Assembly: GCA_008933995.1 (NCBI GenBank)
Contig: WARS01000065.1
Span: 1,054,001-1,118,000 of the forward strand
Length of the DNA stretch: 64,000 nt
Reading direction: 5' to 3'
Source: Datnioides undecimradiatus
Taxonomy: Eukaryota > Chordata > Actinopteri > Lobotiformes > Datnioididae
Below the pieces are notes generated by a model. That model ran no database searches. It was not told the origin of the DNA and saw only the letters and a program-made list of their open reading frames with translations. A program made the translations under genes and the position numbers. Numbering within the stretch: the first letter of the stretch is position 1; every line of letters starts with the position of its first letter. This document shows, in pieces, positions 34,818 to 63,110 of this stretch.

Positions 34818-37800
34818 TCATATTGTAATGTCATCTAAATCGTCACCTCCACTGAGTCCACTGACAGGGCGGATGATAAGTGGGGATTTGTTGCTGTCAC
34901 TGTCATGCATATCTGGGTTAAAAAAGGGAAACATGGCCTCTGTAAATTGGAATTGTCTAAAGGAATAGATGTGTGACTTGGTCTGTGCATCATAGAAGGA
35001 CACGGTCCCGTCTTCATAATCCAAAAACACCCCAATAACCTGCGGCCTATCGGAGAGACACAGCAGCTCTGCCTGTCCTGCACATGCCCGGTACTCACTG
35101 CCCTTCCTCAGACAGATTGTCCAATAACCGTCCTCTGGACTCAGTGTGACCACTCCCTTCCTGATGACTGACTGTCGAGCCACACCTAAGTCCCAGGCTG
35201 TTTTGTCTCCAACGTCTACCTCCCAGTAGCACCTCCCTGTGGTGAAACCCTGCATTGCAAGAGAGGCTCAGGTCACTAGGACTGCTCTTTTCCCAGTGAG
35301 TGAAACAAAAAAGCATGACCCTACTGGGATAAACACATACACACTGCATTCTTATATTTTTAACACATTCATATATTTACCCTGGTGGCAAGGACACATG
35401 GTGCGATGTCAAAACGCTCTGGTATGTCCACCAGGTTCTGCTCAACATCTCCATCCCAGACTTGTCTCCCATCCTCTGATAGAACCAGCCAAGGGTTGGC
35501 TGTCTTTGGGTCCAGATGAACATCAACTGGTTACAGACATAACAGAAGTTCAACTTCATTATCATTTCTCCAAAGATTCTTTTTTGATTTGTGATATCCA
35601 TTATTTTGAAAGAAAAATACTCTTTATGAAAAGTACAGTAACTAAACAACGGTTTGTCTCAGTGCTACAAAGCTGGATGACACTATTTGCTGGCCAGTTA
35701 GCAGTATTTGTTAAGTATCATCTTGATGGTTGTCTAAATGATCATGAGTTAACTAATTAGTCAGAACCTGTCAGAGAATGAAAGCAAGATTTTGGTAATT
35801 CACTGATTTACTAATTAATCAGGCGAAAAACACGAGACAAACTGACTGTTGGCTGTGAGAACGACATTTTAGAGACCAAAAAATCAATAGATAGATCAGA
35901 ACAGAAAATCAACATTTCAGATGTATTTTTGATAAAGGATGTTATGATGTCCTTTCAGGTAAATTATGATTTGGTTTTGTTGAAAAACAGCACAGAAGAT
36001 GTAACAGAAAGAGACTGTTATTGACATTATTTAACCAAAATCGAAGTCCAACTGTACCTGCATACTGCTGCATCTGCTCAAACGCTGTAAATTAATAAGA
36101 CAGAAACAACTTACTTAAACAAATTCATGGATTAAATCTGTGATCATGACATTAAATGGATGGATTGTTACTGAATGTAGTGATGCTGACAAAAAAATCT
36201 TTTGACCTTGAATGGAAAGCTTTTTCAAAGCTGATTGAAACTCCTGTTCAATGCAGGCTAGCTCTCTCCACACAGTCCCCAAACATGTGTTTGAATGGAC
36301 GATGATGTCAGAGCAGGGCACGGCAGATGGAGGAGAACTCAGAGATGGAAACCTCTGACAGTCAAACAAGACAAAAATTACTTTAAAGGAGAGAAGACAA
36401 GTGGCTTGAATTACGATAAAAGACAACTTTCTACGACCCAGCTCTCTCCACCTCACTCCGTGAATTAATATATTTTAAGACTGCTCTTTAGCATCTGTGT
36501 TTCTACTGTGGATTTCTTCCTGTATGACTATCAAATATCAGTTCTCCCTACCTGCAGCAGATGGAGGTGGTCCTCACTGTGAAAAAGCTGCTCGATCTCA
36601 CTCCTCTTCTTCTCCAGCTCAGTGATTTCCTGCTCCAGCTCTTTGATTAGCCTCTCTGCCCTTTGCTCTGCTGCCGCCTGCTTCCTCTGGATCATCTCCA
36701 CCAATTCAGCCTGTCTTCTCTCCATGCAGCGAAGCAGAGTGGAGAAGACCTCCATGCTTTCAAGAATGTCCCTCTTTGATTTTCCCTGAGGACAGGTGAT
36801 AGTAAATGAAGAAAAACGTGGACTGTTTAAGGTAAACCACTACTTGCTTTTTTGCTTACTATTACCTCACCTGCAGTGTTTCACTGTACAGAATGATGTA
36901 TGTGTTTGATACATTATCCTGCTAAAGGTGGAAAGTCTCTTTGCACTTGAACTCAAATCTGAGTTTCACATGTTAACATACAAGCATGTTTTTCAGTCTA
37001 GTGTGTAACTTCCACAAGTGTGATGTGGAAACATACCTTTTATTCTGTATTTCCTGCGTGTAAACCATTAGTCATATGCGTTCAGCCTCTCCTATTCTTA
37101 TACAAAGACCATTTTAACTGCTGCTGAAACATCCAATTAAGCCCAATATAATCTAATGCAAACTTACTTTACTGAGTTCTATAGAGTGTTTGATCTCCTC
37201 CACTTTCTGCAGTCTGTTCTGGATCATCTGCTGAACATCAGCCTCAACCCTTTTCATGTGAGCCTGGACATCAGAGAAGGAATGGAAACATAATAAAAGA
37301 TGTATTGATGGCACATTGACAGTGAGGAGTCTGGAGCCTCACCTTCTTTTCCTGACTCTCTCGCTCCACTGGGACAGTGTCATGACTGCGGTGGTCAGCC
37401 TCGGTGCACAGCACACACACACACCTTTGGTCGCTCCTGCAGAACAGCTCCAGGAGCCGCTGATGCCTTTTACACATCCTGCTCTCTAGCGTTGCCACTG
37501 GTTCAATCAGCTTGTGAATCTTCAAGGTGGCAACTCTCATGTGAGGCTCCAGGTGACTTTCGCAATATGAAGTCAGACACACAAGGCATGACTTCAGGGC
37601 CTTTGTTTGCTTTCCCACACACGCATCACAATGTACAAAATTTTCTGCCATTGATGTCACGTCATTCTGTCTTCTCGCTCGGATCTGCTCGGACATTTCC
37701 TTGGCAAACGAGTTTTCACAAAGCTCGGGGCGGCCCTCAAAGACAGTCTGACATTTGGGACAGCTGATGGTGAGGCTATCCTCCCAATGTGATGTAATGC

Positions 37801-37912
37801 AGGTGAAGCAGAAGCTGTGGCCGCAAGGAATGGAGACAGGTTCAGAGAAAACTTTCTGACAGATGCAACATTGAAACTGCACCTCTGACAGGAGAATGCT
37901 GGGGGAGGCCAT
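34818..37912 (-). CDS. TRIM-family E3 ubiquitin ligase-like protein (RING, B-boxes, coiled coil, B30.2), complete
   Basis: Seven coding exons on the minus strand: 37343-37912 (570 nt), 37168-37263 (96), 36552-36785 (234), 36207-36354 (148), 36058-36084 (27), 35381-35526 (146) and 34818-35249 (432). They total 1,653 nt (550 aa) without a break. Exon 1 holds a C3HC4 RING ([23 protein letters not shown]) and two B-boxes (HCDACVGKQ, then [20 protein letters not shown]). The 96- and 234-nt exons encode the coiled coil, the standard TRIM layout. The PRY half has [16 protein letters not shown]. The SPRY half has the WEV motif ([18 protein letters not shown]) and the LDYE motif ([14 protein letters not shown]). 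The start [19 protein letters not shown] resembles bloodthirsty/TRIM39-like and finTRIM proteins, many with antiviral roles in fish. The exact subfamily is not resolved. Unusually, PRY and SPRY lie in separate exons. Confidence 0.92.
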
Positions 37913-39076: not shown

Positions 39077-42000
39077 CTAATGTTTCTGCATTCCATATTT
39101 GTTTCCTTCCTCTTTTTTCTCCACTGCTTTCAAGTCACTGAATGAACCCTCCAGGATATCATATCTGGTGTCAATCCATTTTGTTTGAGAAGCTAGATTT
39201 GACGAGGCCACAAACACAAACAAACACACATACATGCATACGGACACACAAACAACAAAAATGTTAATAATTAGTTAAATAATTTATAGACTGTGAATAA
39301 AAGCTAGTATTTGAATTGTAAAAATGAATTGAAACAGCAGTCTGTCTCACCTCCTGCAATACGACCTGTATGTCCGAGTCTAAAAACTGAATAAATGACT
39401 TTAATCTGATGTTCATTGAAACAACGTAATCTGTTGACAAAAATACACAATGTTAAATTAAATGCACATGATAATATTAAAGGACAATGGATTCCATTGA
39501 TAGAGTTAAGTATTGAAACCCTTAATCCAAGTGCTGAACTTACTATATATATATATAGCAGCTATATAACAGCCATCCATACAAGAATTTATGAAGCATG
39601 TGTTCATATTTCAAATGTTCAAATTGTATGTATGTGTAACATACATATTTACATATTTATACATATTTATACATACCTGTAAAGCAGTGATTTGCAAAAA
39701 ATAACAGTTGTGATTAGAATATTTTTTCAAACTTGTAAATATGTGTATGTATCTCAAATGAGAACTCAGAGCAAGGTTCAGACAATGCAATAAATATAAC
39801 ATGTGCATATACTTACAAGGCCCTGTTGTAGGAAACAGAGTCAGAAGAAGGTTTGACAAGATGGCATGTGTTGAAATATAAAGAGAAATACAATGGGATA
39901 AATTGAAAATTGTTACTATAATTACATTTGTATACTGAAAATTAAATCAACAGCTTTAATATTAAAATACAAAACAAAGAATAAACAATGAAGGACAAAG
40001 AAAACCCACAACTGAACAGGAATGGTGGAAAAACTGGGTAGTGTAGGTCTTAATACATTAAGGAGAAAAGCATTTATGTGTCAAACGTAAGAAGAAATAC
40101 CTATTGGTAGTACTGACAACTGTGCAGTAGTTTCATTTGTTTAGAGGTAAAAAAAAAATTTCAGCTTTCATCATCGTTCTGGTCAATCTTAGCTATTCCT
40201 GCTGCCGTAACATGAATTATGCTATATTACCATTTAAATGCCATTTAAATATATTTTAAATCATATAGTAGACTGTTAGGTGTAGCAGAGAAAAACAGTG
40301 TTGAGTAAAGACACAAAACTGAAGGCAAACATCTTACCAGTGGCTGCAGTGATGGATACTCCACTGCTTCTGACGTTCTCAAACACAGAGAAGAGAATGA
40401 ACGTGTATTTAGTTCCAGCAGTAAGAGATGAGACTGTGTGAATTACTGGTCCAACTCCAACTGGTGCAGTGATGTTGACCTCTGTGCCATTAAACTGGAG
40501 AATAAAGCTGTTGCTGTTCACTTTATTCCACTGCAGAGTGATGCTGGTCTTGTCTTGTCCTGTTAACCTGAAGCTTTGTGCATTTGGTGGAGCTGAGAAA
40601 GAAAAAGAGTAGGAAGCAAACTGAGGAACACTCAAAGAAAGTGTCAATGTTGAATGTTAGGGAGGTCACGTGATGATGGCCTAGGAGACGGTCGGTTTTG
40701 CGGGAGCTCCGCCAGCACCCTTCATATATTTTGCATTCTCTCTTAAACCACGTTATTTTTTTATAATGCCAGTGCAGTAGTATGACTCTTGAACAATTCT
40801 GGACAAAACAACGCCAAACAATGCCAAGGGGAAAGACTAAGTCGCGACAGCCAACTGACAACACGGCTATGGAGCTAGCCCGACATGGCGGCGAGCATGA
40901 TGAAGACGATGAGGAGGCAGAACTTGAACCCGGACTTGCTAAAGCGCTGGACTTGATGACCAACAAACTTATGATGGCTATTAACAACTAACTTGAGCCT
41001 TTGGCTAAAACAGTCCTCTCTCACACTACCGAGCTGAAGAGGGCTAATGACCGCTTGGATGAAGCAGAGGCTAGGATGCTGCAGCTTGAGACAGCTAACG
41101 AGCCGCAAGCTAATCGAAAAGCAGCCTTGGAAAGAAAAGTCGAAGCCCTTCACGACCATATAGATGACCTGGAAAACAGAGGGCGGCGGAAAAATGTCCG
41201 CATCCTCAACCTGCCCGAGAATATGGAGGGAAGAAATGCTTTGGACTTCTTTGAACATTGGTAACCGGATTTTCTCGGCATGGATGCTAAAGGGGGGGCC
41301 GAGTTAAGCTAGAGTGGGCTCACCGCTCTCTAATGCCCAAGACCGGGTCCAATCAGCGACCGCGCCCGGTTATCATCCGGTTCCACACGTTTCCGGACAA
41401 GCAGAGAGTGATGGCAGCAGTACGGTGGAAAGCAGTGGACGGGGATAATACTCTGGAGGGAAGGAAAATATCCTTCTACCATGACCTGTCCGCCGTAGTA
41501 CTTTGCAAACAGAAAGAATTTAATGAAGCCAAACAATGTCTCAGACAAATCGGTGCTGATAACTTCATGCTCACTGAATGGCACCAAGAAAACCTTCCTC
41601 TCCCCGACAGAGGCTCTGACCTTTGCAACCAGCACAGCACGTCAAGAATGACGGATTCTCCGACCATATGAGAGCTAAGTTTGAACACTAGGTCATGTAC
41701 ACTGGTGACTATGCCCTGTTAGGGTACATCTTACATTCATGTGAATGATTACTCATTATCATAATATGTATGTAGGTGTCCCCCCCGCTTAATTATACAC
41801 CAGTATTCATTCAGTGGAAGTCCAGCTGGTTTAGGAGTAGATGACGATTCACATTTAAAGGCTTATAAGTTGAAAACTTTTGTTTATCAGGTAATATTTG
41901 GGTGTTGCTGTGAGCTCTGGTCAACTGGGTTATGTCACTTGCTGGAGGTGCCTTACAGAACAGCAATCCCCCCGCAATCTGGGGAAGGACCACCCCCCCC

Positions 42001-45000
42001 CCCGTTTTTGCATAATTTTTTTACTGTTATGGTTCCATATGTTCTGTTTTTTTTGTTACTTGTAGTTCATGCTCAGTACTGGTCTCTCACATTCAGTGCA
42101 TCATGTCAACATATTTCGATAAACTGCCCGCCCAAATTATACTTGCCAACAGAGTGATGCCACCTTATAAGTTAAAACTCTGTTCATGGAATATAAGGGG
42201 TTTAAGGGATAATGTGAAGCGAAGAAAGGTTTACTCTTTGTTGAAGAGGGAGGGGGTGGATGTGGCTTTATTACAGGAGTCCCACTTAGAGGACAATGAA
42301 CATCTCAAACTCAAATACGGCTGGGTTGGCCAGGTGTACTTTTCCTCTTTTACCACTAGTAGCAGAGGGGTTGATACACAAGAATCTACCATTCCAATTA
42401 AAAAAGTGTATAAAAGACAAGTACGGAAGATTTGTGATTATAAATGGTGTCTTAAATGGCAAAGAAATTACAATTATGAATCTTTATTGCCCACCTAACT
42501 ATTCTCCAGATTTGTTAACTAAAGCATTTTTAGAATTTGCAGAAGTATCTTCGCCACTGGCCTTGGTGGGAGGTGACTTTAATTGTTTACTTAATCCTCG
42601 ACTTGATAGACACCCCCCACGAAATACTCTTCTGTCAAACCAGGCTAGAGCCCTCTTGTCGACTTGTGGGGAAGTTAACCTGGTTGATATATGGCGACCA
42701 TTGCACCCATCTGATAGAGAATTCACCTTTTACTCCCCCCCACAAGTGCCACACGCGGATTGATTATTTTCTCGTACCCCAGTCTATGATCCAACTTGTG
42801 TCTTCCTGCTCAATAGGCAATATTGTGGTTAGTGATCATGCAATTTTGCTCCTTGAATTATCTCTTGACATAGAATCTGCAAAAAGTAAATGCTGGAGAC
42901 TCGATGTGCGTCTCCTGAAAGATGACAAATTCATCTCTTATCTGAAAAGTGAATTTAAGATATTCTTGTCTATTAATTCACAATCTACTAGCAACCCATC
43001 CTTACTGTGGGAAACTGCCAAAGCATACATTAGGGGTTTAATTATAGCCTGTTCAGCCTCAAAAAGGAAAAAACAATTAGAACAGCAACTAAAACTTGAA
43101 AAAGAACTGGCAGATATTAAAAGTGCACTTGGCTTATCATCAGACCTATTACTGTTGCAGAGGAAATGCGCAATACAGGCTGCTCTAGACACCTTACTAA
43201 CCCAGCAGGCTAGGAGTGCGCTCCTCTTCTCAAAGCAAAAGTTATATGAGCATGGGGACAAGTCCAGTAAGTATTTATCCCATTTGACCAAAATTAAAAG
43301 GGAGTGATTCCTTCAATTTTAGATGAGAACAGCACCCGCCACTTTGATAACAAAAACATTAATAACACTTTCAGACAATTTTATGCTAGGTTGTATGAGT
43401 CAGATCAACCACAGGGAGTCTCAGATAGGATGGAATCCTTTCTAGGGAGACTAACCCTCCCAACCATCTCTGATTCCCAAAAATGTGAATTAAATGCTCC
43501 CATCTCCAGGGAGGAGGCCTTGTTAGCACTTAAAGGCCTACAGTCAGGCAAGGCACCAGGGCCTGATGGCCTGAGCAGTGAATTTTATCGAGAATTTCAA
43601 GATGTGCTCGTAGACCCCTTCTTGGAAATGTTGGAACATTCTTTCATCACTGGTAGCCTCCCCCATTCATTAAGAGAAGCCGATATCACTTTAATTTTGA
43701 AAAAAGGAAAGTCCCCTGAGGACTGCGCAGGATACAGGTCTATTGCTCTTTTGAATCAGGACATTAAAATACTATCCAAAATATTAGCATTACGTCTTGT
43801 GAAAGTTCTACCTTTTCTCATCAGAGAGGATCAGACAGGCTTTATCAAAGGTAGAAATTCCAGTTACAATGTTAGGAGGCTTCTGCATATTATCGATATT
43901 TGTCAGACACAGGAAATTGATAGCATTGTCATTTCATTGGATGCAGAAAAGGCATTTGACCGTGTCAAATGGTCATACCTGTTCAATGTCTTACGTAAAT
44001 TTAATCTGGGAGACAATTTTATTAGATGGGTCATATTACTATATAAGAACCCCATGGCCGCAGTCATTACCAATGGCTATAGATCTGACAACTTCCCACT
44101 TCATCGCTCAACACGCCAGGGCTGCCCTCTTAGCCCTGCTCTTTTTGCCCTTGCAATAGAGCCTCTCGCTGAGGCCATAAGGCAAGACTCTGATATAATT
44201 GGCATAAAAGTGGGTGAGATCCAACATAAAATTTCCCTCTACGCTGATGATGTATTGCTTTATGTGCTGGAACCTGAAACTTCTGTTTCACGTCTTGTTG
44301 AGGTAATCACTTTGTTTGGAGATTTTTCGGGTTACAAAATCAATTTCTCAAAATCTTTATCTATGCCAATGGGAAGCCTTAGGGATAAAACTGACACACT
44401 ACCCTCATTCCCATTTAAATGGTCCATAACAGGTTTTGTCTACCTGGGCATTCATATCACACCCTTGTTTCATGAAATGTTTAGGGCCAATTTTAACCCC
44501 CTCCTAGACTCCATAAAGAAGGACCTGAACAGATGGGCTCCACTCCCCTTGTCATTGCTTGGTAGAGTGTCTATCATCAAAATGAATGTTTTGCCAAGAT
44601 TATTATACCCCCTACAGATGATCCCACTACTCTTGTCAGGCAAGATACTGAAGCTGCTTGATGGCTGGCTGAGTGACTTCATTTGGAACAAGAGAAAGCC
44701 CAGGCTAAAAGTAGCGAAACTACAACTTCCTAGTTTGAAGGGTGGTCTAGATCTTCCCAACATCAGATGGTATTAGCTGGTGGGAATGGGTCAAGGAGGA
44801 TCCTACCTCTGATTTGCTGAGTTTAGAGAAGTCACAGACCTCAGGCTCCCTGTTAGGCCTTTTGGCCTTCAAGGACTTAAAGTCAGCCAGGAACCATTGT
44901 AAAAACAATCCTATAATCTGTAATACTTTAAAAGCATGGTTTATTATACGAAAGCTTGAAGGGAGGTCTGGACTAACATCTCCATTGGCTCCAATTCAAG

Positions 45001-48000
45001 GCAATCCTAACTTCTTGCCAGGCATGATGGATGGTGGATATAGCACTTGGACATCTCAGGGGATAAAGAGGATGCATGATTTATTTCAGGGTGCATCCAT
45101 GCTATCATTTGCACAACTTCAAGAAAAGTATAATCTCCCCAGGCATGATTTTTTCAAATATCTGCAGATTCGAGACTTCATAAACAGAGAAACTACTCTC
45201 AATAGTGATGCCACTATATCCGCAGTTGAACAATTACTTCTCCTTGGCCCAGCTAAGAAATCCATTGCTCGCTTTTACAATGTCTTAAGCCAGACTGATG
45301 TGATAAATGTACAGGATGTTATGCAGATGTGGCAAGGTGAACTTGGTATAGATATTGATGGGGATAAATGGACTAAGATATGGACTCAAACTAAGAAAAT
45401 ATCTGTGTGTAACCATGCCAGATTGCTGCAATTTAAGATTGTGCACCGTTTACAAATCTCCCCCAACAAAAGACATAATATGAACTCTCAACTCTCACCT
45501 GCATGCTTAAAATGTAAAATCTCAGTGGGCACCTATACTCACTATATTTGGTCTTGTCCTAAAATTCAAGCGTACTGGATGGATGTTCTGCAAGATCTGG
45601 AAAATATATTTGGTGTTGTGTTGCACGTGGACCCTCTTTCTCTAATACTGGGTTACCCCAGTCAAGATACTATTGTGGATGCTGATTCTGCCAGACTGTA
45701 TGATATCCTTACATATACAGCAAGGAAGAATATCTTTTTGTCTTGGATAAGTGATAAGCCCCCCACTAAATCAAACTGGCATAAGATGATTATGGAATGT
45801 TTTCCCCTTGAATACCTGACCTGTCTGGTTCATTCTTCAGAGGGACAATTTATGAACATTTGGATTCCATATCTTCACTTTTCCAACTCTACAGTGGCTT
45901 CAGTGCTCTCGGGTGTTGTCCTTGGCTAGCCTTTAGCTCTTTACCTGTGTCATGTTGTCATTGCACTGATCGGGTACATGTGAGATGTAAATGTGTATCT
46001 GTGCTGTCTTTTTGTTGTTATTATGTTAATATATATATAAAAATTCAATACGATAGCACATTTGAGAAAAAAAAACAAGAATGCCGTTGGTGAGATAGGG
46101 AAGAAATGAAACAAATCTATGCATTACTTTGAAGGTGTTTGGATCCAGTGATAACGTTAGTTAAAAAGAGAGATGTAGATGACAATGAAGGAAAAATATT
46201 CTGGGTAAAATACTTATAAACTGCATTGAAAAAAGCAGAGAAGAGTTGAACTGACAATAAAAGAAAATATGACAATGAAGATATATTGTGATAGTTTCAT
46301 TGTTGCAATATTACACATTTACTCTGCTGCACTGAAAAACAGGGCATAACTAGCATGAAACAATTGAATAAAAATAGTGTGACAGTGATATTTACCAGTG
46401 GCTGCAGTGATGGTTACTCCACTGCTTCTGACGTTTTCATACACGGACAGGAGAATGAACGTGTATTTAGTTCCAGCAGCAAGATATGATACTGTGTAAA
46501 TCACTGGTCCAACTCCAACTGGTGCAGTGATGTTGACCTCTGTACCATTAAACTGGAGAATAAAGCTGCTGTTGTTCACTTCACTCCACTGCAGAGTGAT
46601 GCTGGTCTCGTCTTGTCCTGTTGATCTAAAACTCTCTGTGTTTGGAGGAGCTGAGAAAGGAAATGGTAGTTTTTTGGTGTTGAAAATACACTGTGGTTAT
46701 TTTGCATTGGAGTTAGAATTGTGTCAGGGAGAAGCATGAAGTAAGCAGGGCGCAGAGATTAGATGATCACCATGTCTGAACTACACTTCAGACTGATCAT
46801 TTTAGCCCTAGCTTAAAAGGTAGTGAACATCTTACCAGTGGCTGCAGTAATGGTTACTCCACTGCTTCTGACGTTTTCATACACGGAGAAGAGAGTGAAT
46901 GTGTATTTAGTTCCAGCAGTAAGAGATGAGACTGTGTGAGTCACTGGTCCAACTCCAACTGGTGCAGTGATGTTGACCTGTGTACCATTAAACTGGAGAA
47001 TAAAGCTGCTGTTGTTCACTTTATTCCACTGCAGAGTGATGCTGGTCTCGTCTTGTCCTGTTGATCTAAAACTCTCTGTGTTTGGAGGAGCTGAGAAAGG
47101 AAATGGTAGTTTTTTGGTGTTGAAAATACACTGTGGTTATTTTGCATTGGAGTTAGAATTGTGTCAGGGAGAAGCATGAAGTAAGCAGGGCGCAGAGATT
47201 AGATGATCACCATGTCTGAACTACACTTCAGACTGATCATTTTAGCCCTAGCTTAAAAGGTAGTGAACATCTTACCAGTGGCTGCAGTAATGGTTACTCC
47301 ACTGCTTCTGACGTTTTCATACACGGAGAAGAGAGTGAATGTGTATTTAGTTCCAGCAGTAAGAGATGAGACTGTGTGAGTCACTGGTCCAACTCCAACT
47401 GGTGCAGTGATGTTGACCTGTGTACCATTAAACTGGAGAATAAAGCTGCTGTTGTTCACTTTATTCCACTGCAGAGTGATGCTGGTCTCGTCTTGTCCTG
47501 TTGATCTAAAACTCTCTGTGTTTGGAGGAGCTGAGAAAGGAAATGGTAGTTTTTTGGTGTTGAAAATACACTGTGGTTATTTTGCATTGGAGTTAGAATT
47601 GTGTCAGGGAGAAGCATGAAGTAAGCAGGGCGCAGAGATTAGATGATCACCATGTCTGAACTACACTTCAGACTGATCATTTTAGCCCTAGCTTAAAAGG
47701 TAGTGAACATCTTACCAGTGGCTGCAGTAATGGTTACTCCACTGCTTCTGACGTTTTCATACACGGAGAAGAGAGTGAATGTGTATTTAGTTCCAGCAGT
47801 AAGAGATGAGACTGTGTGAGTCACTGGTCCAACTCCAACTGGTGCAGTGATGTTGACCTGTGTACCATTAAACTGGAGAATAAAGCTGCTGTTGTTCACT
47901 TTATTCCACTGCAGAGTGATGCTGGTCTCGTCTTGTCCTGTTGATCTAAAACTCTCTGTGTTTGGAGGAGCTGAGAAAGGAAATGGTAGTTTTTTGGTGT

Positions 48001-51000
48001 TGAAAATACACTGTGGTTATTTTGCATTGGAGTTAGAATTGTGTCAGGGAGAAGCATGAAGTAAGCAGGGCGCAGAGATTAGATGATCACCATGTCTGAA
48101 CTACACTTCAGACTGATCATTTTAGCCCTAGCTTAAAAGGTAGTGAACATCTTACCAGTGGCTGCAGTAATGGTTACTCCACTGCTTCTGACGTTTTCAT
48201 ACACGGAGAAGAGAGTGAATGTGTATTTAGTTCCAGCAGTAAGAGATGAGACTGTGTGAGTCACTGGTCCAACTCCAACTGGTGCAGTGATGTTGACCTG
48301 TGTACCATTAAACTGGAGAATAAAGCTGCTGTTGTTCACTTTATTCCACTGCAGAGTGATGCTGGTCTCGTCTTGTCCTGTTGATCTAAAACTCTCTGTG
48401 TTTGGAGGAGCTGAGAAAGGAAATGGTAGTTTTTTGGTGTTGAAAATACACTGTGGTTATTTTGCATTGGAGTTAGAATTGTGTCAGGGAGAAGCATGAA
48501 GTAAGCAGGGCGCAGAGATTAGATGATCACCATGTCTGAACTACACTTCAGACTGATCATTTTAGCCCTAGCTTAAAAGGTAGTGAACATCTTACCAGTG
48601 GCTGCAGTAATGGTTACTCCACTGCTTCTGACGTTTTCATACACGGAGAAGAGAGTGAATGTGTATTTAGTTCCAGCAGTAAGAGATGAGACTGTGTGAG
48701 TCACTGGTCCAACTCCAACTGGTGCAGTGATGTTGACCTGTGTACCATTAAACTGGAGAATAAAGCTGCTGTTGTTCACTTTATTCCACTGCAGAGTGAT
48801 GCTGGTCTCGTCTTGTCCTGTTGATCTAAAACTCTCTGTGTTTGGAGGAGCTGAGAAAGGAAATGGTAGTTTTTTGGTGTTGAAAATACACTGTGGTTAT
48901 TTTGCATTGGAGTTAGAATTGTGTCAGGGAGAAGCATGAAGTAAGCAGGGCGCAGAGATTAGATGATCACCATGTCTGAACTACACTTCAGACTGATCAT
49001 TTTAGCCCTAGCTTAAAAGGTAGTGAACATCTTACCAGTGGCTGCAGTAATGGTTACTCCACTGCTTCTGACGTTTTCATACACGGAGAAGAGAGTGAAT
49101 GTGTATTTAGTTCCAGCAGTAAGAGATGAGACTGTGTGAGTCACTGGTCCAACTCCAACTGGTGCAGTGATGTTGACCTGTGTACCATTAAACTGGAGAA
49201 TAAAGCTGCTGTTGTTCACTTTATTCCACTGCAGAGTGATGCTGGTCTCGTCTTGTCCTGTTGATCTAAAACTCTCTGTGTTTGGAGGAGCTGAGAAAGG
49301 AAATGGTAGTTTTTTGGTGTTGAAAATACACTGTGGTTATTTTGCATTGGAGTTAGAATTGTGTCAGGGAGAAGCATGAAGTAAGCAGGGCGCAGAGATT
49401 AGATGATCACCATGTCTGAACTACACTTCAGACTGATCATTTTAGCCCTAGCTTAAAAGGTAGTGAACATCTTACCAGTGGCTGCAGTAATGGTTACTCC
49501 ACTGCTTCTGACGTTTTCATACACGGAGAAGAGAGTGAATGTGTATTTAGTTCCAGCAGTAAGAGATGAGACTGTGTGAGTCACTGGTCCAACTCCAACT
49601 GGTGCAGTGATGTTGACCTGTGTACCATTAAACTGGAGAATAAAGCTGCTGTTGTTCACTTTATTCCACTGCAGAGTGATGCTGGTCTCGTCTTGTCCTG
49701 TTGATCTAAAACTCTCTGTGTTTGGAGGAGCTGAGAAAGGAAATGGTAGTTTTTTGGTGTTGAAAATACACTGTGGTTATTTTGCATTGGAGTTAGAATT
49801 GTGTCAGGGAGAAGCATGAAGTAAGCAGGGCGCAGAGATTAGATGATCACCATGTCTGAACTACACTTCAGACTGATCATTTTAGCCCTAGCTTAAAAGG
49901 TAGTGAACATCTTACCAGTGGCTGCAGTAATGGTTACTCCACTGCTTCTGACGTTTTCATACACGGAGAAGAGAGTGAATGTGTATTTAGTTCCAGCAGT
50001 AAGAGATGAGACTGTGTGAGTCACTGGTCCAACTCCAACTGGTGCAGTGATGTTGACCTGTGTACCATTAAACTGGAGAATAAAGCTGCTGTTGTTCACT
50101 TTATTCCACTGCAGAGTGATGCTGGTCTCGTCTTGTCCTGTTGATCTAAAACTCTCTGTGTTTGGAGGAGCTGAGAAAGGAAATGGTAGTTTTTTGGTGT
50201 TGAAAATACACTGTGGTTATTTTGCATTGGAGTTAGAATTGTGTCAGGGAGAAGCATGAAGTAAGCAGGGCGCAGAGATTAGATGATCACCATGTCTGAA
50301 CTACACTTCAGACTGACACCTTTAGCCATTGTTCAAAAGGTATTGACAAAGTCAAACATCTTACCAGTGGCTGCAGTGATGGTTATTCCCCTGCTTCTGA
50401 CGTTCTCAAACACGGAGAAGAGAGTGAATGTGTATTTAGTTCCAGCAGCGAGAGATGATACTGCGTGAATCACTGGTCCAACTCCAACTGGTGCAGTGAT
50501 GTTGACCTCTGTGCCATTAAACTGGAAAATAAAGCTGCTGTTGTTCACTTTATTCCACTGCAGAGTGATGTTGGTCTCGTCTTGTCCTGTTGATCTAAAA
50601 CTCTCTGTGTTTGGAGGAGCTGAGGAGAGAAATGGTCGTTTTTTGGTGTTGAAAATACACTGTTGATATTTTGCATTGGAGTCAGAATTGTGTCAGGGAG
50701 AAGCATGAAGTAAGCAGGGCCGCAGAGATTAGATGATCACCATGTCTGAACTACACTTCAGACTGATCATGTTAGCCCTGATTCAAAGGGCATTGACAAA
50801 GTCAAACATCTTACCAGTGACTGCAGTAATGGTTACTCCACTGCTTCTGACGTTTTTATACACAGAGAAGAGAGTGAACGTGTATTTAGTTCCAGCAGTA
50901 AGAGATGAGACTGTGTGATTTACTGGTCCAACTCCAACTGGTGCAGTGATGTTGACCTCTGTGCCATTAAACTGGAGAATAAAGCTGCTGTTGTTCACTT

Positions 51001-54000
51001 TATTCCACTGCAGAGTGATGCTGGTCTCGTCTTGTCCTGTTGATCTAAAACTCTCTGTGTTTGGAGGAGCTGAGAAAGGAAATGGTAGTTTTTTGGTGTT
51101 GAAAATACACTGTTGATATTTTGCATTGGAGTTAGAATTGTGTCAGGGAGAAGCATGAAGTAAGCAGGGCCGCAGAGATTAGATGATCACCATGTCTGAA
51201 CTACACTTCAGACTGATCATGTTAGCCCTGATTCAAAGGGCATTGACAAAGTCAAACATCTTACCAGTGACTGCAGTAATGGTTACTCCACTGCTTCTGA
51301 CGTTTTTATACACAGAGAAGAGAGTGAACGTGTATTTAGTTCCAGCAGTAAGAGATGAGACTGTGTGATTTACTGGTCCAACTCCAACTGGTGCAGTGAT
51401 GTTGACCTCTGTGCCATTAAACTGGAGAATAAAGCTGCTGTTGTTCACTTCACTCCACTGCAGAGTGATGCTGGTCTCGTCTTGTCCTGTTGATCTAAAA
51501 CTCTCCGTGTTTGGAGGAGCTGAGGAGAGAAATGGTAGTGGTTTCTGATGCTTAAAATACACTGTTGATATTTTGCATTGGAGTTAGAATTGTGTCAGGG
51601 AGAAGCATGAAGTAAGCAGGGCGCAGAGATTAGATGATCACCATGTATGAAATACACTTCAGACTGATCATTTTAGCCCTAGCTTAAAAGGTAGTGAACA
51701 TCTTACCAGTGACTGCAGTGATGGTTACTCCCCTGCTTCTGACGTTTTCATACACGGAAATGAGAGTAAATGTGTATTTAGTTCCGGCAGTAAGAGATGT
51801 GACTGTGTGAGTCACTGGTCCAAATCCAACTGGTGCAGTGATGTTGACCTGTGTGCCATTAAACTGGAGAATAAAGCTGCTGTTGTTCACTTTATTCCAC
51901 TGCAGAGTGATGCTGGTCTCGTCTTGTCCTGTTGATCTAAAACTCTCTGTGTTTGGAGGAGCTGAGAAAGGAAATGGTAGTTTTTTGGTGTTGAAAATAC
52001 ACTGTTGATATTTTGCATGGCAGTTAGCACTGTGCCAGGGAGAAGCATGAAGTAAGCAGGGCCACAGAGATTAGATGATCACCACATCTGAACTACACTC
52101 CAGACTGATCATTTTAGCCCTAGCTTAAAAGGTAATAAACATCTTACCAGTGGCTGCTGTGATGGATACTCCACTGCTTCTGACGTTTTCATACACGGAG
52201 AAGAGAGTGAATGTGTATTTAGTTTCAGCAGTAAGAGATGATACTGTGTGAGTCACTGGTCCAACTCCAACTGGTGCAGTGATGTTGACCTGTGTGCCAT
52301 TAAACTGGAGAATAAAGCTGCTGTTGTTCACTTTATTCCACTGCAGAGTGATGCTGGTCTCGTCTTGTCCTGTTGATTTAAAACTCTCTGTGTTTGGAGG
52401 AGCTGAGGAGGGAAATGGTAGTTTTTTGGTGTTGAACATACACTGTGATTATTTCACATGGCAGTTAGCACTGTGCCAGGGAGAAACATGAAGTAAGCAG
52501 GACCACAGAGATTAGATGATCACCATGTCTGAACTACACTTCAGACTGATAATTTTAGCCCTAGCTCAAAAGCTAGTCAACATCTTACCAGTGGCTGCAG
52601 TGATGGATACTCCACTGCTTCTGATGTTCTCAAACACAGAGAAGAGAATGAACGTGTATTTAGTTCCAGCAGTAAGAGATGAGACTGTGTGAATCACTGG
52701 TCCAACTCCAACTGGTGCAGTGATGTTGACCTCTGTGCCATTAAACTGGAGAATAAAGCTGCTGTTGTTCACTTCATTCCACTGCAGAGTGATGCTGGTC
52801 TCATCTTGTCCTGTTGATCTAAAACTCTCCGTGTTTGGTGGAACTGTTACACAAACAGGACAGCTTGTCAAATGAAATATTTTGTACTGTTAACAAATGT
52901 TTGATTCAGCACGCAAAATGTAATTTTGCACTTCACGTTGAGTATAATGGACATGCTTATTTTTTTAGTGATGATACACTACCTGTTAATTGATAAATCT
53001 ATTCTGGTACCTTAGATTCCATCTAATACATACTTCCCAATATCAATGACTAATGGACAACGTTCACATAGTGTAATGTAAAAGTTGTCTGTTAACTTTT
53101 TTATGTTTTTAGTCTCTTTAACAAACTCAACAATTTAACTCAGCTGTTTTTTAGTGTGAATTTGATCTTAATATCTAGGTGTGACATACATACAGTAACT
53201 TCTCTCCATGGAGTATTTAAGCAGAAATAAGATACATTACTTGGTTTGTAACAGATGAATGGGAATGTGAGGGCGCAATTATCATCTGACCACCGTCCTG
53301 AGTCACTGAAAGCCATGGTGAAACAAAGGTCAACGTCACTGTTTGGTTGCCCATCAGCCCAGTGTCGAAACTGAGAGGTACTTCCATCTGACCACAGTTT
53401 TTCCCGGTACAAACCAATCCACACAAAGGACTCATTTGCCAGACGTGTGATGATCTCATTTTCTGTCTGATTTCGTATACTTAAAGAAAAACAGTAGCAT
53501 ATACATGTGAGGTTGAATATAACAGACAAAACAATCAATGCATGCTGCAAAACATGACTAGATTGTTATATAAATATAACAATATAACCCATGGAAGATG
53601 TCGCCATTTAACTCACACCACTATCTATTATAAGGTAACTACTGATACAATGCTTCTCATACTAATACTTCTTGTACACAATTGTCATCAGCATTATAAT
53701 TATACTACATAACTCAGCTCTCCAAGTGCATTACAGTCATCCATCTACTGCTGAACAATACACAAGCGATAGAGAAAATGAATAAAAATGTACATTCAAT
53801 AATGAATAAAAAGACAGGCAAGGAGGAATTAGAAAGAGCAAGCCCTGAAAAACATCAGCTTGTATTTTTGGATCAATACACTGGGTATTGAATGTTCTCT
53901 CAACTTCTGGAATAATAAATAAGCCTGATTTCACAAACAGAACAGCTCAATATAGATTTCAATTCAGTACTGTACCTGGCTAGATCAACATAATGTTCCC

Positions 54001-55795
54001 TGCAAAATTTCTGAGCATCTGTCCAATTCAGAGGTGTGCTGACATGTATAAAGGTTGGTGTACCATTTACTATAGCTGGAAATATAAGGATGATGAGATG
54101 TTATAAACAACATTATGACACACATGTAGAAAACACTCATTTTACTACAGAAAGTAGAAAGAGTTAAAGGTCTAGATTGACATAAACAAATAAATAGAAG
54201 TGTCAAGATGATTGTGGAAATGCTTTTGTTTGTTCATTTTAATGTGTGGAGAAAACTCACCGTAGCACACAAAGGTTTCTAAAATATCGCAGTGGTAGTC
54301 TCCCCATGTGCCATTGTACTGACCACCAAGAAGCTGCACACAGTTATCTTGTCCATCAAGATTGTTGGGCTGGCTAGCTTCCCAGTTTCTAAACTCTGTC
54401 TCTCCTTCACCATAGAAGCTGCTGATATTCAGGGACCATTTCCAGCTGTTTAGCAGATCATCGTAAAGACCTATCCAAGCCTTTCCTGTTCAAAGACAAA
54501 TACACTTTTATCTATTTAGAATAAGTTTACAAAAAACTGTCCTTGCTGTTGTGAAAGTATATGGTTGTATTTGTTGGTATGTGGTTATTCATGTATGTGT
54601 ATAAATGACTATTAAATACTGAGAACTTGCCTGTATAGTTCGATGTGGTACTGACAGAAGCATTAACATCATCTGTGTTTTCTATGGTGGCCAGGTCAGT
54701 GTAGACCTGTCTGCAGTAGCTCTGAGCTTCAGACCAGTTCAGTGGTATGCTCACAAAATGGTACTGATGAGTTTGGGCAAAGGCAACATTGCCCAAAGCT
54801 CCTAAAACAAAGCAGTATTCAGTTTTCAGATACTTACTTTCTTAAAAATATGTGACTTTCTATGTTCTTTTACAGTAAATATGAGGAGCACTATGAATAA
54901 GGTGGGTTCAGCAACATTGCTGCAGGTTTTTACAAAGTCTCTTCCTTGATGAGAGTTTCATCTGCTAGCAGTAAACAAAATCAGTAACCAGACATTTCTA
55001 AGAAGCTTGGAAAGCTTTTGTATATTGTACATGACACTATAACAGCTATAGATTCATTTATACAAATTTAGGTTTCTAATTTATGTATAGATAAATACAA
55101 TTCAACAACAAAGAACAGAAAAAGCATATCTGCCATGTCACTGACTGGGTGGTGCTCCACTGAACCTGCCAGATTTAATAACAAATGACTGAAAGATTTC
55201 TCTACCTCATCTTGAGCAAGATTAGGTTTCAGTCTGTCTCACTGAACCAGTGTTCACTGTTAACACCACTGGTGAACAAAAGGGAAACCAGTTCAACTAC
55301 GAGGTGTAAGCATTAACTATTAAGGCACTGGACTCATTGGAACTGAATAAACGTGAAGGGAAATCTGTCTAACTGTGTGTATTTTTACATTCATCTGTTT
55401 GTTTCATTCAAATCAGGCTAAGTCAGACAAGGCACACCTTCTCATCTCTTTATTGTATTATTGTATTCTTTACCACTGTGCTATAATCATCATTTATAAC
55501 GATCAAAAATCTAGTTACCCTACAGAAAAAAAACCCCATTTCTGCACTTAGAAATCCTGACCTTAGGACCTGTACAGGAATATTTCTTATCTAAAACAAC
55601 TGATGAATCAACAAGGAAATTATTAAAATTAAGTAACGGTCAACAATTATTGTCATTGTATTACATTTTTAGCTTAAAAGTTGTATCTTTTTTCAATGCC
55701 AGTATTTAAATACTTTAAAATGACAAAAGGCACAAAGGGAAGGAAGGGAAAAGGCACCAACCTGTCAGAACAAAAATGATCAGCCCATAATCCAT
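39077..55795 (-). CDS. Signal peptide, two C-type lectin domains and sixteen FN3 repeats: unnamed fish lectin/receptor
   Basis: Minus-strand gene. Signal exon 55762-55795 (MDYGLIIFVLT). CTLD1 in 54631-54801 plus 54261-54485 (LNWSEAQSYCRQVYTDLATI, AWIGLYDD, EASQPNNLDGQDNC, WGDYHCD). CTLD2 in 53976-54075 plus 53241-53479 (LNWTDAQKFCREHYVDLA, FVWIGLYREKLW, WADGQPNSDVDLC, WSDDNCALTFPFICY). Then sixteen FN3 exons of exactly 255 nt, ending at 52589, 52148, 51707, 51265, 50815, 50365, eight at 440-bp steps from 49916 down to 46836, 46396 and 40338. The five upstream exons sum to 769 nt, leaving phase 1, which every FN3 exon keeps. Tentative tail exons: 39351-39386 (36 nt, phase 1-1) and 39077-39192, reading ASQTKWIDTRYDILEGSF and on to GMQKH and a stop. 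No transmembrane exon was found between 39390 and 40337. Both CTLDs have QPN where sugar-binding lectins have EPN or QPD. Ligand and function are unknown; FN3 repeats of this type occur in fish receptor phosphatase-like proteins. Confidence 0.85.
39393..40337 (-). other. Unresolved 3' part of the lectin-FN3 gene
   Basis: One or more exons should join the last FN3 exon to the tail exons. Candidate donors exist on the minus strand (at 40098, gtattt; at about 39816, gtaagt; at about 39675, gtatgt), but no combination gave a continuous frame with a membrane segment. It also contains an AT dinucleotide run near 39541-39560. Confidence 0.3.
40658..46077 (+). mobile_element. Nearly full-length L1/Tx1-type LINE, inactive
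   Basis: A 5.4-kb non-LTR retrotransposon, antisense to the lectin gene, in the intron between FN3 exons 46396-46650 and 40338-40592. A short leader is followed by ORF1 (40782-41671) with an acidic N-terminus, a coiled coil (DEAEARMLQLETANEPQANR) and an RRM/C-terminal-like part (PRPVIIRFHTFPDKQRVMAA). ORF2 (about 42160-45929) has an APE endonuclease (CSWNIRGL, LLQESHLE, GGDFNCLLNP, SDHAILLLEL), a reverse transcriptase (GKAPGPDGLSSEFY, SLDAEKAFDRVKW, RQGCPLSPALFALAIEPLA, YADD at 44240-44251) and a C-terminal zinc knuckle, C-x2-C-x8-H-x4-C, near 45503. ORF1 has three in-frame stops (after MAINN, after FFEHW and near 41310). ORF2 changes frame around 42340, 42540-42750, 43300 and 44776. It ends in an A-rich tail near 46070. 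No clear target-site duplication was seen. Confidence 0.93.
46585..50316 (-). repeat. Tandem array of a 440-bp FN3 exon-plus-intron unit, about 8.5 copies
   Basis: The same 440-bp sequence repeats head-to-tail with no difference that I could see by eye in exon or intron. Eight FN3 exons (46836-47090, 47276-47530, 47716-47970, 48156-48410, 48596-48850, 49036-49290, 49476-49730, 49916-50170) encode one identical 85-residue domain. Identity starts right after two mismatches at 46582 and 46584 and stops at 50316, where the next unit diverges (gactgacacc instead of gactgatcat). Each exon is 255 nt and phase 1 at both ends. Confidence 0.97.
50365..52843 (-). repeat. Older, diverged FN3 units of 441-450 bp
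   Basis: Six further FN3 exons (50365-50619, 50815-51069, 51265-51519, 51707-51961, 52148-52402, 52589-52843) with related introns. Spacing is 450, 450, 442, 441 and 441. The units ending at 50815 and 51265 encode the same residues, including the private YKNVRSSGVTITAVTG, so they form a second recent duplicate pair. The others differ at scattered positions (for example EVNIT versus QVNIT). Confidence 0.9.
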
Positions 55796-60917: not shown

Positions 60918-63110
60918 ATGGAGGAGAAGAAGCAGTTTCTTTGTGGGGTGGTGGAAGGTAAGAGCGGCCGACTTCATAACTGACCTCCTGTCAGATCATG
61001 TGATTTTTTTTCTTACCTCGGGGGGATGATTTTGAAGAGACCACCATTTGACCTAGATTCCAGCATTGTTTTGTCACTTACTGTAGGTGAAGGGGGGCGT
61101 GGGAGTGGTAGTAGGCTATGCGTGTGAACACTGAGGAAGGAAGGATGGAGAGGTCTTTATTAGATGATGTGCTGGTGATCAGCCAGGCTTGAAGTGGAGA
61201 TCAAAGACCAGGCAGTGAAATAGCATTCAATAATGTCTGGTTCAAAGGCTGCAGCCTAGGCAAAGGAAATATGGCCTATAATAGCTAGTGATAATGAAGA
61301 TGATGATGATGCAGAAAATGATGACCATGATTATGATGATGACAATGATAATGGTGGAAACAGTAATGATGATGTGATGATATTGAAAACAACTGTGGAG
61401 GTTATTAAGATGGTAATTATGACTGGGGACTGTGATGATGTTTGTTGGGGTGATGTGACATTAGGTGGTGATGGACACTGTAATGATGATGATTGTTGGA
61501 ATGATAATGATGATAAGATGATGAGAGGAAGCAATGGAGGAGAATAGAATTTGAGGAAAAAAAATCCCAATGGAGAAGCCTGATGACGTTGGGAGTAATG
61601 GGAATAGTGGTGGATTAGGATAGTAATGATAAGCAACACTAGCACTGGTGACGAAAATAATTTAGGTTACAGCTACATGTTATGACAGTGGCAGACTAAT
61701 TACAGCAGAAAATGGTGAAGGCAACAAAGAAACTGATGATTAGAACAAACCCACCAACCATGCATGCACACAATGAAGAATTAATGCAGTGAAAATGTAT
61801 CTGATCATATGCTGCAAGTATAGTCCCTGAAAAAAACAGGAACAGGAAATATATTGGGTGTTTACGTCAGACAAAGCCTAAGGTGACATTGTAAATGTTG
61901 CTTTGTCTAAAACCTCAGAATATCCAGTTAACAGTGATATACAGCAGAGGAAAAACTGAAAATCCTCCTGCATGAGGAACTAGCAGGTGATTGGCAGTTT
62001 TGCTCGTTAAAAAGATGATAGTTGCTCATTAAAGTTGTTGCCTATTAGCTTTCTACCGTCTGACTCGTTGTTTCAGCACTGGTCTGTTTGTCCACTGTCT
62101 CAACTTTCCAGCTCTATGATTCTCTGTCTGCGTTCATTGTGTTGATTTGAAAATTCACGTCCCAATGGCAATAAAAGTATGACACATCATGCAGCTCCAG
62201 CACAAACACTCACACATACACACACACACACCTTATTACTAATTCTTAGACCCCCTTAAACCTGTGTGTTTCTCAGTCCCATGTGGTGGTATCCAACAGA
62301 GTTAGTAATTGGGTCTGGCTTAGTGGGAAGCCCTCTGCAGGACACACACACGCACGCATGCACATGCACACAGGTACATGTGTCATACACATGCACGCCA
62401 ATATTAACCATCCCCACAGGCATGCGGGAGGGAGCAGTCTGGATTTTTCATAGATCCGACTTACTTCTCACCATGACCCACTTACTGTACACACATACAG
62501 TATGCACATACCGTCAAACACACACACATACACACTGTAGACTTATTCAAAAAACACAAAGGAGGGAGAGGGACACTGGAGATGCTCCCATTTCTAAAAA
62601 TAGAAAATGTGATGGAGAGTGTAGCTAGAGTTGAATTATGCTGCTGCCAAACACAGAGGGGATGTGACCAACTAAGCAGTGCATATCTGTTTATGTGCCC
62701 CTACAGTACTGTAGCTGCTATATGTTCAGTAGCTGATAAGGGTCCAGTTTGTGATTAATTGCTGCAGAGCTGGTCACTAAAAAATAGGACAGAGAGCCAT
62801 AAGATACAAAATAGGCTATAGATACTTTAGTACATTCAGTGGTAATTCACATTTGTAGAGAGTAGAGGTAATTTTACAATTTCTGAGCTTACAACATTAT
62901 GCTGTTTCCACAAAGCCAATAGTGAACAGATGAGTTACAACAGAGTGCCCTTAAAGGGAACTAATCAAAACTCTAGGTGATCAAGTATGTCAGTGATCAT
63001 GTCTGTGGATTTATGATGACATGTATGGGCTCATTTCATTTCTCTGTTTCCTCTGCAGGGTTCTATGGGAGGCCGTGGTCTATGGATCAGAGGAAAGTTC
63101 TCTTCCAATG
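60918..63110 (+). CDS. oga: Protein O-GlcNAcase, first two coding exons (gene runs off the right edge)
   Basis: Exon 1 coding part 60918-60957 (MEEKKQFLCGVVEG across the junction) and exon 2 63059-63110 (GFYGRPWSMDQRKVLFQW), with GTAAGA and GTGAGT donors and a CTGCAG acceptor. This is the start of the GH84 catalytic domain, matching the human segment RFLCGVVEGFYGRPW. The enzyme removes O-linked GlcNAc from Ser/Thr of nuclear and cytoplasmic proteins. The catalytic Asp pair lies further downstream, outside the window. The N-terminus is much shorter than the Ala/Pro-rich human leader, so this may be the fish paralog (mgea5-like) rather than oga itself. Intron 1 (60958-63058) carries GATGAT-rich and CA-rich low-complexity DNA. 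Confidence 0.88.
61290..61530. repeat. Degenerate GATGAT low-complexity tract in oga intron 1
   Basis: Dense gatgat/aatgat triplets with many interruptions; the complement reads as an artificial Ile/Ser/His frame. Confidence 0.7.
62190..62540. repeat. CA-rich microsatellite cluster in oga intron 1
   Basis: Several short acacac runs (about 62212-62231, 62341-62372, 62516-62536) separated by unique sequence. Confidence 0.7.

Follow-up and report, generated by a model that had tools for sequence, protein, structure and literature searches.

An array of perfectly identical 440-bp units, each carrying one fibronectin type III (FN3) exon, lies inside a predicted lectin gene in a 64,000-nucleotide window of the genome of the fish Datnioides undecimradiatus (contig WARS01000065.1, positions 1,054,001 to 1,118,000; coordinates below are those of the window unless another locus is named). 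The reading favored here, and considered fairly probable, is an intact gene with two C-type lectin-like domains (CTLDs), probably secreted, in which misaligned exchange has recently multiplied one FN3 unit into about eight copies. All results come from one genome assembly, in which the array stands at one place, and from a splice model of the gene assembled by eye and with a script, with all features on the minus strand.

Tandem Repeats Finder places a single 440-bp tandem family at 46392-52846, with 14.6 copies and 96% matches. Within this family, a base-by-base self-comparison at a lag of 440 gives an unbroken identical run at 46585-49876, with 0 mismatches in 3,292 comparisons, which is too long for chance and which defines a perfect array at 46585-50316, spanning 3,732 bp or 8.48 units. 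The eight complete FN3 exons of this block (FN3_7 to FN3_14, 46836-50170) are one sequence with 0 differences, the eight introns downstream of these exons are likewise free of substitutions and gaps, and part units extend the block at both ends. A preliminary description of this DNA, which had placed about 8.5 copies of a 440-bp unit with eight identical FN3 exons at these positions, proved right to the base. When one unit was used to search the species' own genome at the DNA level, with very common words skipped and only the best candidates scored, 18 matches were returned, 16 at the array locus and two exon matches (68%) on C465, so that an origin of the unit from a dispersed repeat is unsupported. 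An RNA element was also rejected, as no Rfam match at gathering scores was found in 38-60 kb.

Outside the block, the family is diverged, as had been described. The other eight of the 16 FN3 exons differ from the block exon at 7, 8, 10, 11, 13, 14, 16, and 23 of 255 nt, the 28 pairs among these eight show 3-29 differences, and the remaining six of the 14 repeat-family introns differ from the block intron by 11-21 substitutions and 1-10 gap columns. Among the seven distinct types of exon plus intron unit (units 1-6 and the block), the mean proportion of differing sites is 0.112 in introns and 0.056 in exons, and among nine exon types (1-6, the block, 15, and 16; 36 pairs) the mean nonsynonymous divergence (dN) is 0.052 and the mean synonymous divergence (dS) is 0.124. 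Older introns have therefore diverged at approximately the silent rate, with exons constrained while introns drift. The preliminary statement that introns are as conserved as exons thus holds inside the block and fails among the seven unit types. Since exons and introns are both identical in the block, only copying explains this state; block identity is due to copying and not to protein-level selection, and the earlier attribution to very recent unequal crossing-over or conversion is borne out by the identity of both silent sites and introns. The 95% upper bound on divergence within the block is 9.1e-4 (0 of 3,292), and the length-weighted mean for older whole units, 0.079, is nearly 90 times higher. 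If rates between 2e-9 and 1e-8 per site per year are assumed, which makes the dates a scale only, at most ∼0.05-0.23 million years separate the block copies, and the older units are some 4-20 million years apart. Recent amplification of the unit is well supported.

The history of the array is also recorded at its edges and among its older members. FN3_4 and FN3_5 (50684-51450) form an independent, older pair with a 450-bp unit, with three differences in 255 exon positions, five in 195 intron positions, and an exact run of 317 bp. The intron between FN3_6 and FN3_7 is a hybrid: its first part carries the same 9-bp insertion as introns 4 and 5, and from there on it is block sequence. At the other end, exon comparison shows that FN3_15 (46396-46650) matches the block over its first 66 nt, a part that is also well conserved in other units, and then diverges, with 13 differences in total. 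A permutation test on the longest shared run of variable sites, with 87 variable columns and 21 unit pairs, reached its floor of p 0.0005 for two of the 21 pairs (4/5 and 6/7), with p 0.0020-0.0025 for pairs 2/4, 3/4, and 3/6 and 0.0195-0.0415 for six more pairs; after correction for 21 tests, only pairs 4/5 and 6/7 are clear, at ∼0.01. These mosaic tracts suggest repeated exchange. A further argument for more than one exchange came from the 212-bp overhang common to both block ends, which a single crossover would be very unlikely to leave (7e-10 at mean divergence), yet this argument is weak because the corresponding segment of FN3_5 differs from the block at only two sites and two gap columns. 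Within 46774-52546, 12 of the 14 repeat-family introns contain a 20-bp inverted repeat, GTCTGAA-CTACAC-TTCAGAC. On its right side, at 50316, the perfect block ends 3 bp past one copy of this repeat, perhaps at a break site or perhaps by chance.

The gene model has an intact frame across 23 exons, encoding 1,663 residues and a stop codon, in the order of a signal peptide, two CTLDs (four exons), 16 FN3 exons, and a two-exon tail. Exon 1 (55762-55795) holds the start codon and signal peptide (MDYGLIIFVLTG...), the most hydrophobic segment of the model, with a Kyte-Doolittle value of 1.59 over 19 residues. The first CTLD is encoded at 54631-54801, followed by a GC donor, and at 54261-54485, and the second at 53976-54075 and 53241-53479. 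FN3_1 to FN3_15 then span 52843 down to 46396, beginning with six older, diverged units, FN3_1 to FN3_6 (50365-52843), as seen in the self-match, the splice model, the difference matrices, and the permutation test. FN3_16 (40592-40338), the most diverged FN3 exon in the exon matrix with 23 differences from the block, is separated from the others by a LINE-like (long interspersed nuclear element) insertion in the intron. The tail comprises exon A (39351-39430; phase 1 in, phase 0 out) and exon B with the stop codon (39130-39192). All 16 FN3 exons are 255 nt long with AG/GT borders and phase 1 entry (phase 1-1), so any number of FN3 exons keeps the frame, as the preliminary description had also concluded. 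The FN3 part makes up 1,360 of the 1,663 residues (16 × 85), and the perfect block contributes 680 of these (8 × 85). As block exons, introns, and splice sites are identical, exon skipping is allowed without loss of frame, and the gain or loss of units, or the skipping of block exons, would keep the frame and let the length of the protein drift almost freely.

The identification of a lectin gene with FN3 units was confirmed by Pfam, with two Lectin_C stretches in the joined CTLD part (E 9.9e-35) and an fn3 match to a two-unit query (E 4.1e-12), both above the curated cut-offs. At E<=0.01, the two-unit query matched 12 distinct PDB sequences, nine of fibronectin and one each of tenascin-R, a chitinase, and an unnamed protein, and the unit is placed in FN3 because of these Pfam and PDB sequence matches. 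Each block unit contains four sequons (overlapping NNS/NSS, NGT, and NIT), and 65 of the 74 sequons in the model lie in the FN3 part. The sugar preference of CTLDs is commonly read from short motifs, which in the two lectin heads are QPN with WGD and QPN with WSD; the first CTLD at a related locus, C489, has EPN with WND. The EPN motif is linked with mannose in a survey of Fugu lectins (PMC514892). Sugar binding by the predicted lectin heads is plausible, though it would be non-canonical. In such a protein, two N-terminal lectin heads would be followed by a row of FN3 domains that sets reach, size, and glycan load, with each unit presumably adding one glycosylated FN3 segment between the heads and the tail.

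Relatives of both parts occur elsewhere in the genome. An FN3 search returned 21 matches, 16 in the array gene and five at C465:6658-6661 kb; identity is 47-58% for the top four of these five, one of which has an in-frame stop, and 33% for the fifth. Translation of C465:6658-6664 kb gives FN3 stretches, a membrane span, and phosphatase-like stretches, and this gene is a candidate R3-type receptor tyrosine phosphatase. Its FN3 exons are of the same kind as those of the window gene, judging from the best four matches, whereas the window model has neither a phosphatase part nor a membrane span. An R3-type receptor phosphatase identity for the window gene was rejected, as the downstream model exons encode a 47-residue tail with no membrane span and no Pfam match. 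A CTLD search returned 68 matches, the best three in the window gene (95-98%) and the next at 43%. Dual-CTLD loci were inspected at C465 and C489 beyond the window. The one at C489:1958309-1960569 is, among dual-CTLD relatives, the nearest to the window's lectin part, with 43% over CTLD1. Its CTLD2 is interrupted by a break in the frame, so gene decay or an error of the assembly is possible there. The other has two CTLD stretches at C465:6632925-6634490, ∼24 kb from the phosphatase-like gene (region C465:6632925-6660545), and together these are a possible source of the lectin-FN3 chimera. The arrangement suggests that lectin and FN3 exons were once neighbors and may have been joined via their common phase 1 borders. 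In the window gene, single-exon, phase 1-1 FN3 units, closest to those of the receptor-phosphatase-like gene, lie between CTLD2 and a short tail.

Under the favored explanation, neighboring units would have exchanged sequence out of register, through unequal crossing-over and conversion, until one of them stood in about eight copies, with no substitutions since; exchange would be continuing, and unit number would differ between individuals. The array, seen in one genome, is probably a variable number tandem repeat (VNTR), with copy number differing between individuals. Points that weigh against the favored reading arise both at the array and at the tail of the gene. At the array, the zero differences could stem partly from consensus polishing, the copy number could be no more exact than an assembly estimate, and no second haplotype of the array was found in the own-genome DNA search, in which only the best candidates were scored. 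The true array might be smaller or more varied, and the block an image of it that was over-expanded or made identical by polishing, since assemblies and polishing fail at tandem repeats of such identity and majority polishing would likewise yield exactly 0 differences. However, two genome contigs of 13.3 and 6.8 Mb suggest long reads, within whose span a 6.5-kb repeat region would fall, and the window contains no N. The non-block units, moreover, keep their 3-29 differences per exon pair, and hybrid units stand at both block ends, features that polishing would hardly make; an assembly artefact is regarded as improbable. A single amplification burst, for example by replication slippage, with no continuing exchange and a copy number that is now fixed, would also leave eight identical units, and the 212 bp common to the two block ends are not decisive against it; the 450-bp pair, the end hybrids, and the mosaic tracts indicate instead that the array has passed through several events, and a single burst is considered unlikely, though less so than an artefact. 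Strong protein selection holding the FN3 domains identical fits the lower dN than dS among older units, but not the equal identity of silent sites and eight introns, nor the divergence of older units in the same gene, and hardly merits belief.

Whether the product is soluble bears on the function of the array, which in the preliminary description could set the length of a cell-surface lectin stalk. A membrane-anchored stalk at the cell surface is not supported by the model, in which no segment of membrane-span strength follows the signal peptide, the best 19 residues reaching a Kyte-Doolittle value of 1.44 inside an FN3 domain. A membrane-bound lectin, in which the array sets the distance of the heads from the cell, could nevertheless arise from an alternative last exon, for which an open stretch at ∼39942-40048 is the candidate (35 residues, a hydrophobic end, and a Kyte-Doolittle value of 2.39), and a membrane-bound form by this route is possible. 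The FN3 relatives in the genome also belong to a gene with a membrane span, and the Fugu survey cautions that many lectins appeared soluble in predictions that had overlooked a membrane exon (PMC514892). Set against this, the candidate stretch is T-rich, a simple splice filter applied from FN3_16 to the tail gave 0 candidates for a phase 1-1 internal exon, and Fugu is known to have a group of soluble dual-CTLD lectins (PMC514892). The tail itself has some similarity to stretches that follow CTLD2 at the two other loci. Hand-picked post-CTLD2 stretches align with it at shuffle p 0.0008 (C465:6632-6634 kb) and 0.0002 (C489:1958-1961 kb) in 5,000 shuffles, and in a scan of every open stretch of at least 15 residues in these dual-CTLD loci, the first tail half scored highest at the post-CTLD2 stretch in both (34 vs. 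25 for the next at C465, 33 vs. 28 at C489). A phase 0 intron splits the tail both in the window gene and, by eye, at C465. In the same scan, the post-CTLD2 stretch was not the best-scoring one for the second tail half; with the tail as query, tblastn gave nothing at E 1 at the C465 or C489 locus, and a whole-genome tail search at E 1 or better returned only the gene's own two tail exons. The tail similarity is too weak as proof of kinship with dual-CTLD genes. A membrane-bound lectin is judged unlikely overall, to about the same degree as a single burst; the likeliest product of the modeled gene is a soluble dual-CTLD lectin with an FN3 insert, and there is good reason to expect that the protein is secreted.

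Several known systems share parts of this architecture. The Fugu list of 2004 includes CFN3, a 'Protein with CTLD and FN3 domains', and F1, a soluble dual-CTLD group (PMC514892). CFN3 resembles the window gene in combining CTLDs and FN3 in one fish protein, and the F1 group resembles the gene model in having two CTLDs and no membrane span. The kringle IV-2 VNTR of human LPA likewise consists of highly similar tandem units of exon plus intron encoding a domain within one gene, although its unit has two exons in 5.6 kb and reportedly varies from 1 to ∼40 copies (PMC11462820), whereas the window unit is 440 bp with one exon and its count comes from one genome. The structure of a coding VNTR of the LPA KIV-2 type, namely tandem, near-identical, frame-neutral units of exon plus intron, is present in the window gene. 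Human DMBT1 carries a tandem row of domains in a recognition protein that is secreted, as is predicted for the window gene; there, the number of SRCR domains is reported to vary between people and the varying domain to bind bacteria (PMC4851238), whereas the repeat in the window gene is FN3 and not the lectin head. Expansion of domain repeats followed by concerted evolution is described as a general route in a review (PMC8830517).

Adjacent domains in large multidomain proteins are usually <50% identical, which has been proposed to limit misfolding (PMC8201768; PMC4660218), and identical titin neighbors hold misfolds longer (PMC4660218). Bacterial Periscope Proteins run against this trend, as their binding head is carried by a series of folded domains that are nearly identical (PMC8201768), an arrangement that the window gene appears to share; they differ in being bacterial surface proteins with reported length variation, whereas the window gene is eukaryotic, has introns, and is modeled without an anchor. 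By analogy, the window gene might be a vertebrate counterpart of Periscope Proteins, in which a fast-changing number of identical FN3 domains would tune the reach, size, and glycan load of a lectin, microbes would maintain length alleles in the population, and dense N-glycans would let identical neighbors fold in spite of the cost in misfolding; this is a speculative idea and is judged unlikely. Among the titles listed by literature searches on FN3 copy variation, tandem exon duplication, and fish FN3 lectins, none concerned this gene, though mention within a text is possible.

Other features surround the gene. The putative LINE that interrupts the intron from FN3_15 to FN3_16 lies on the plus strand at 40650-46050 (borders by eye); open frames resembling reverse transcriptase cover 42103-45929 in it, broken up among several reading frames. 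No target-site duplication of 8 to 16 bp was found between 40591-40800 and 46031-46150. Beside the lectin gene, also on the minus strand, are TRIM-type coding stretches at 34818-37912, with RING and B-box (37271-37912) and SPRY (34818-35255). At 60918-63110 on the plus strand are the first exons of a gene that is presumably an O-GlcNAcase. Elsewhere in the assembly, CTLD matches at C471:1500473-1501745 and C472:1500717-1501989 stand at a constant offset of 244 bases and may be retained haplotypes or a recent duplication; the assembly may thus hold both haplotypes in places.

The mechanism proposed for this array is already known from LPA KIV-2 and DMBT1; what is unusual is the presence of eight identical adjacent folded domains in a predicted vertebrate lectin. 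A reference length taken from one sequence of the gene should be regarded as provisional. Its run of eight identical FN3 domains offers a clean natural test of the rate at which domain number changes and of selection on the length of an innate-recognition protein.

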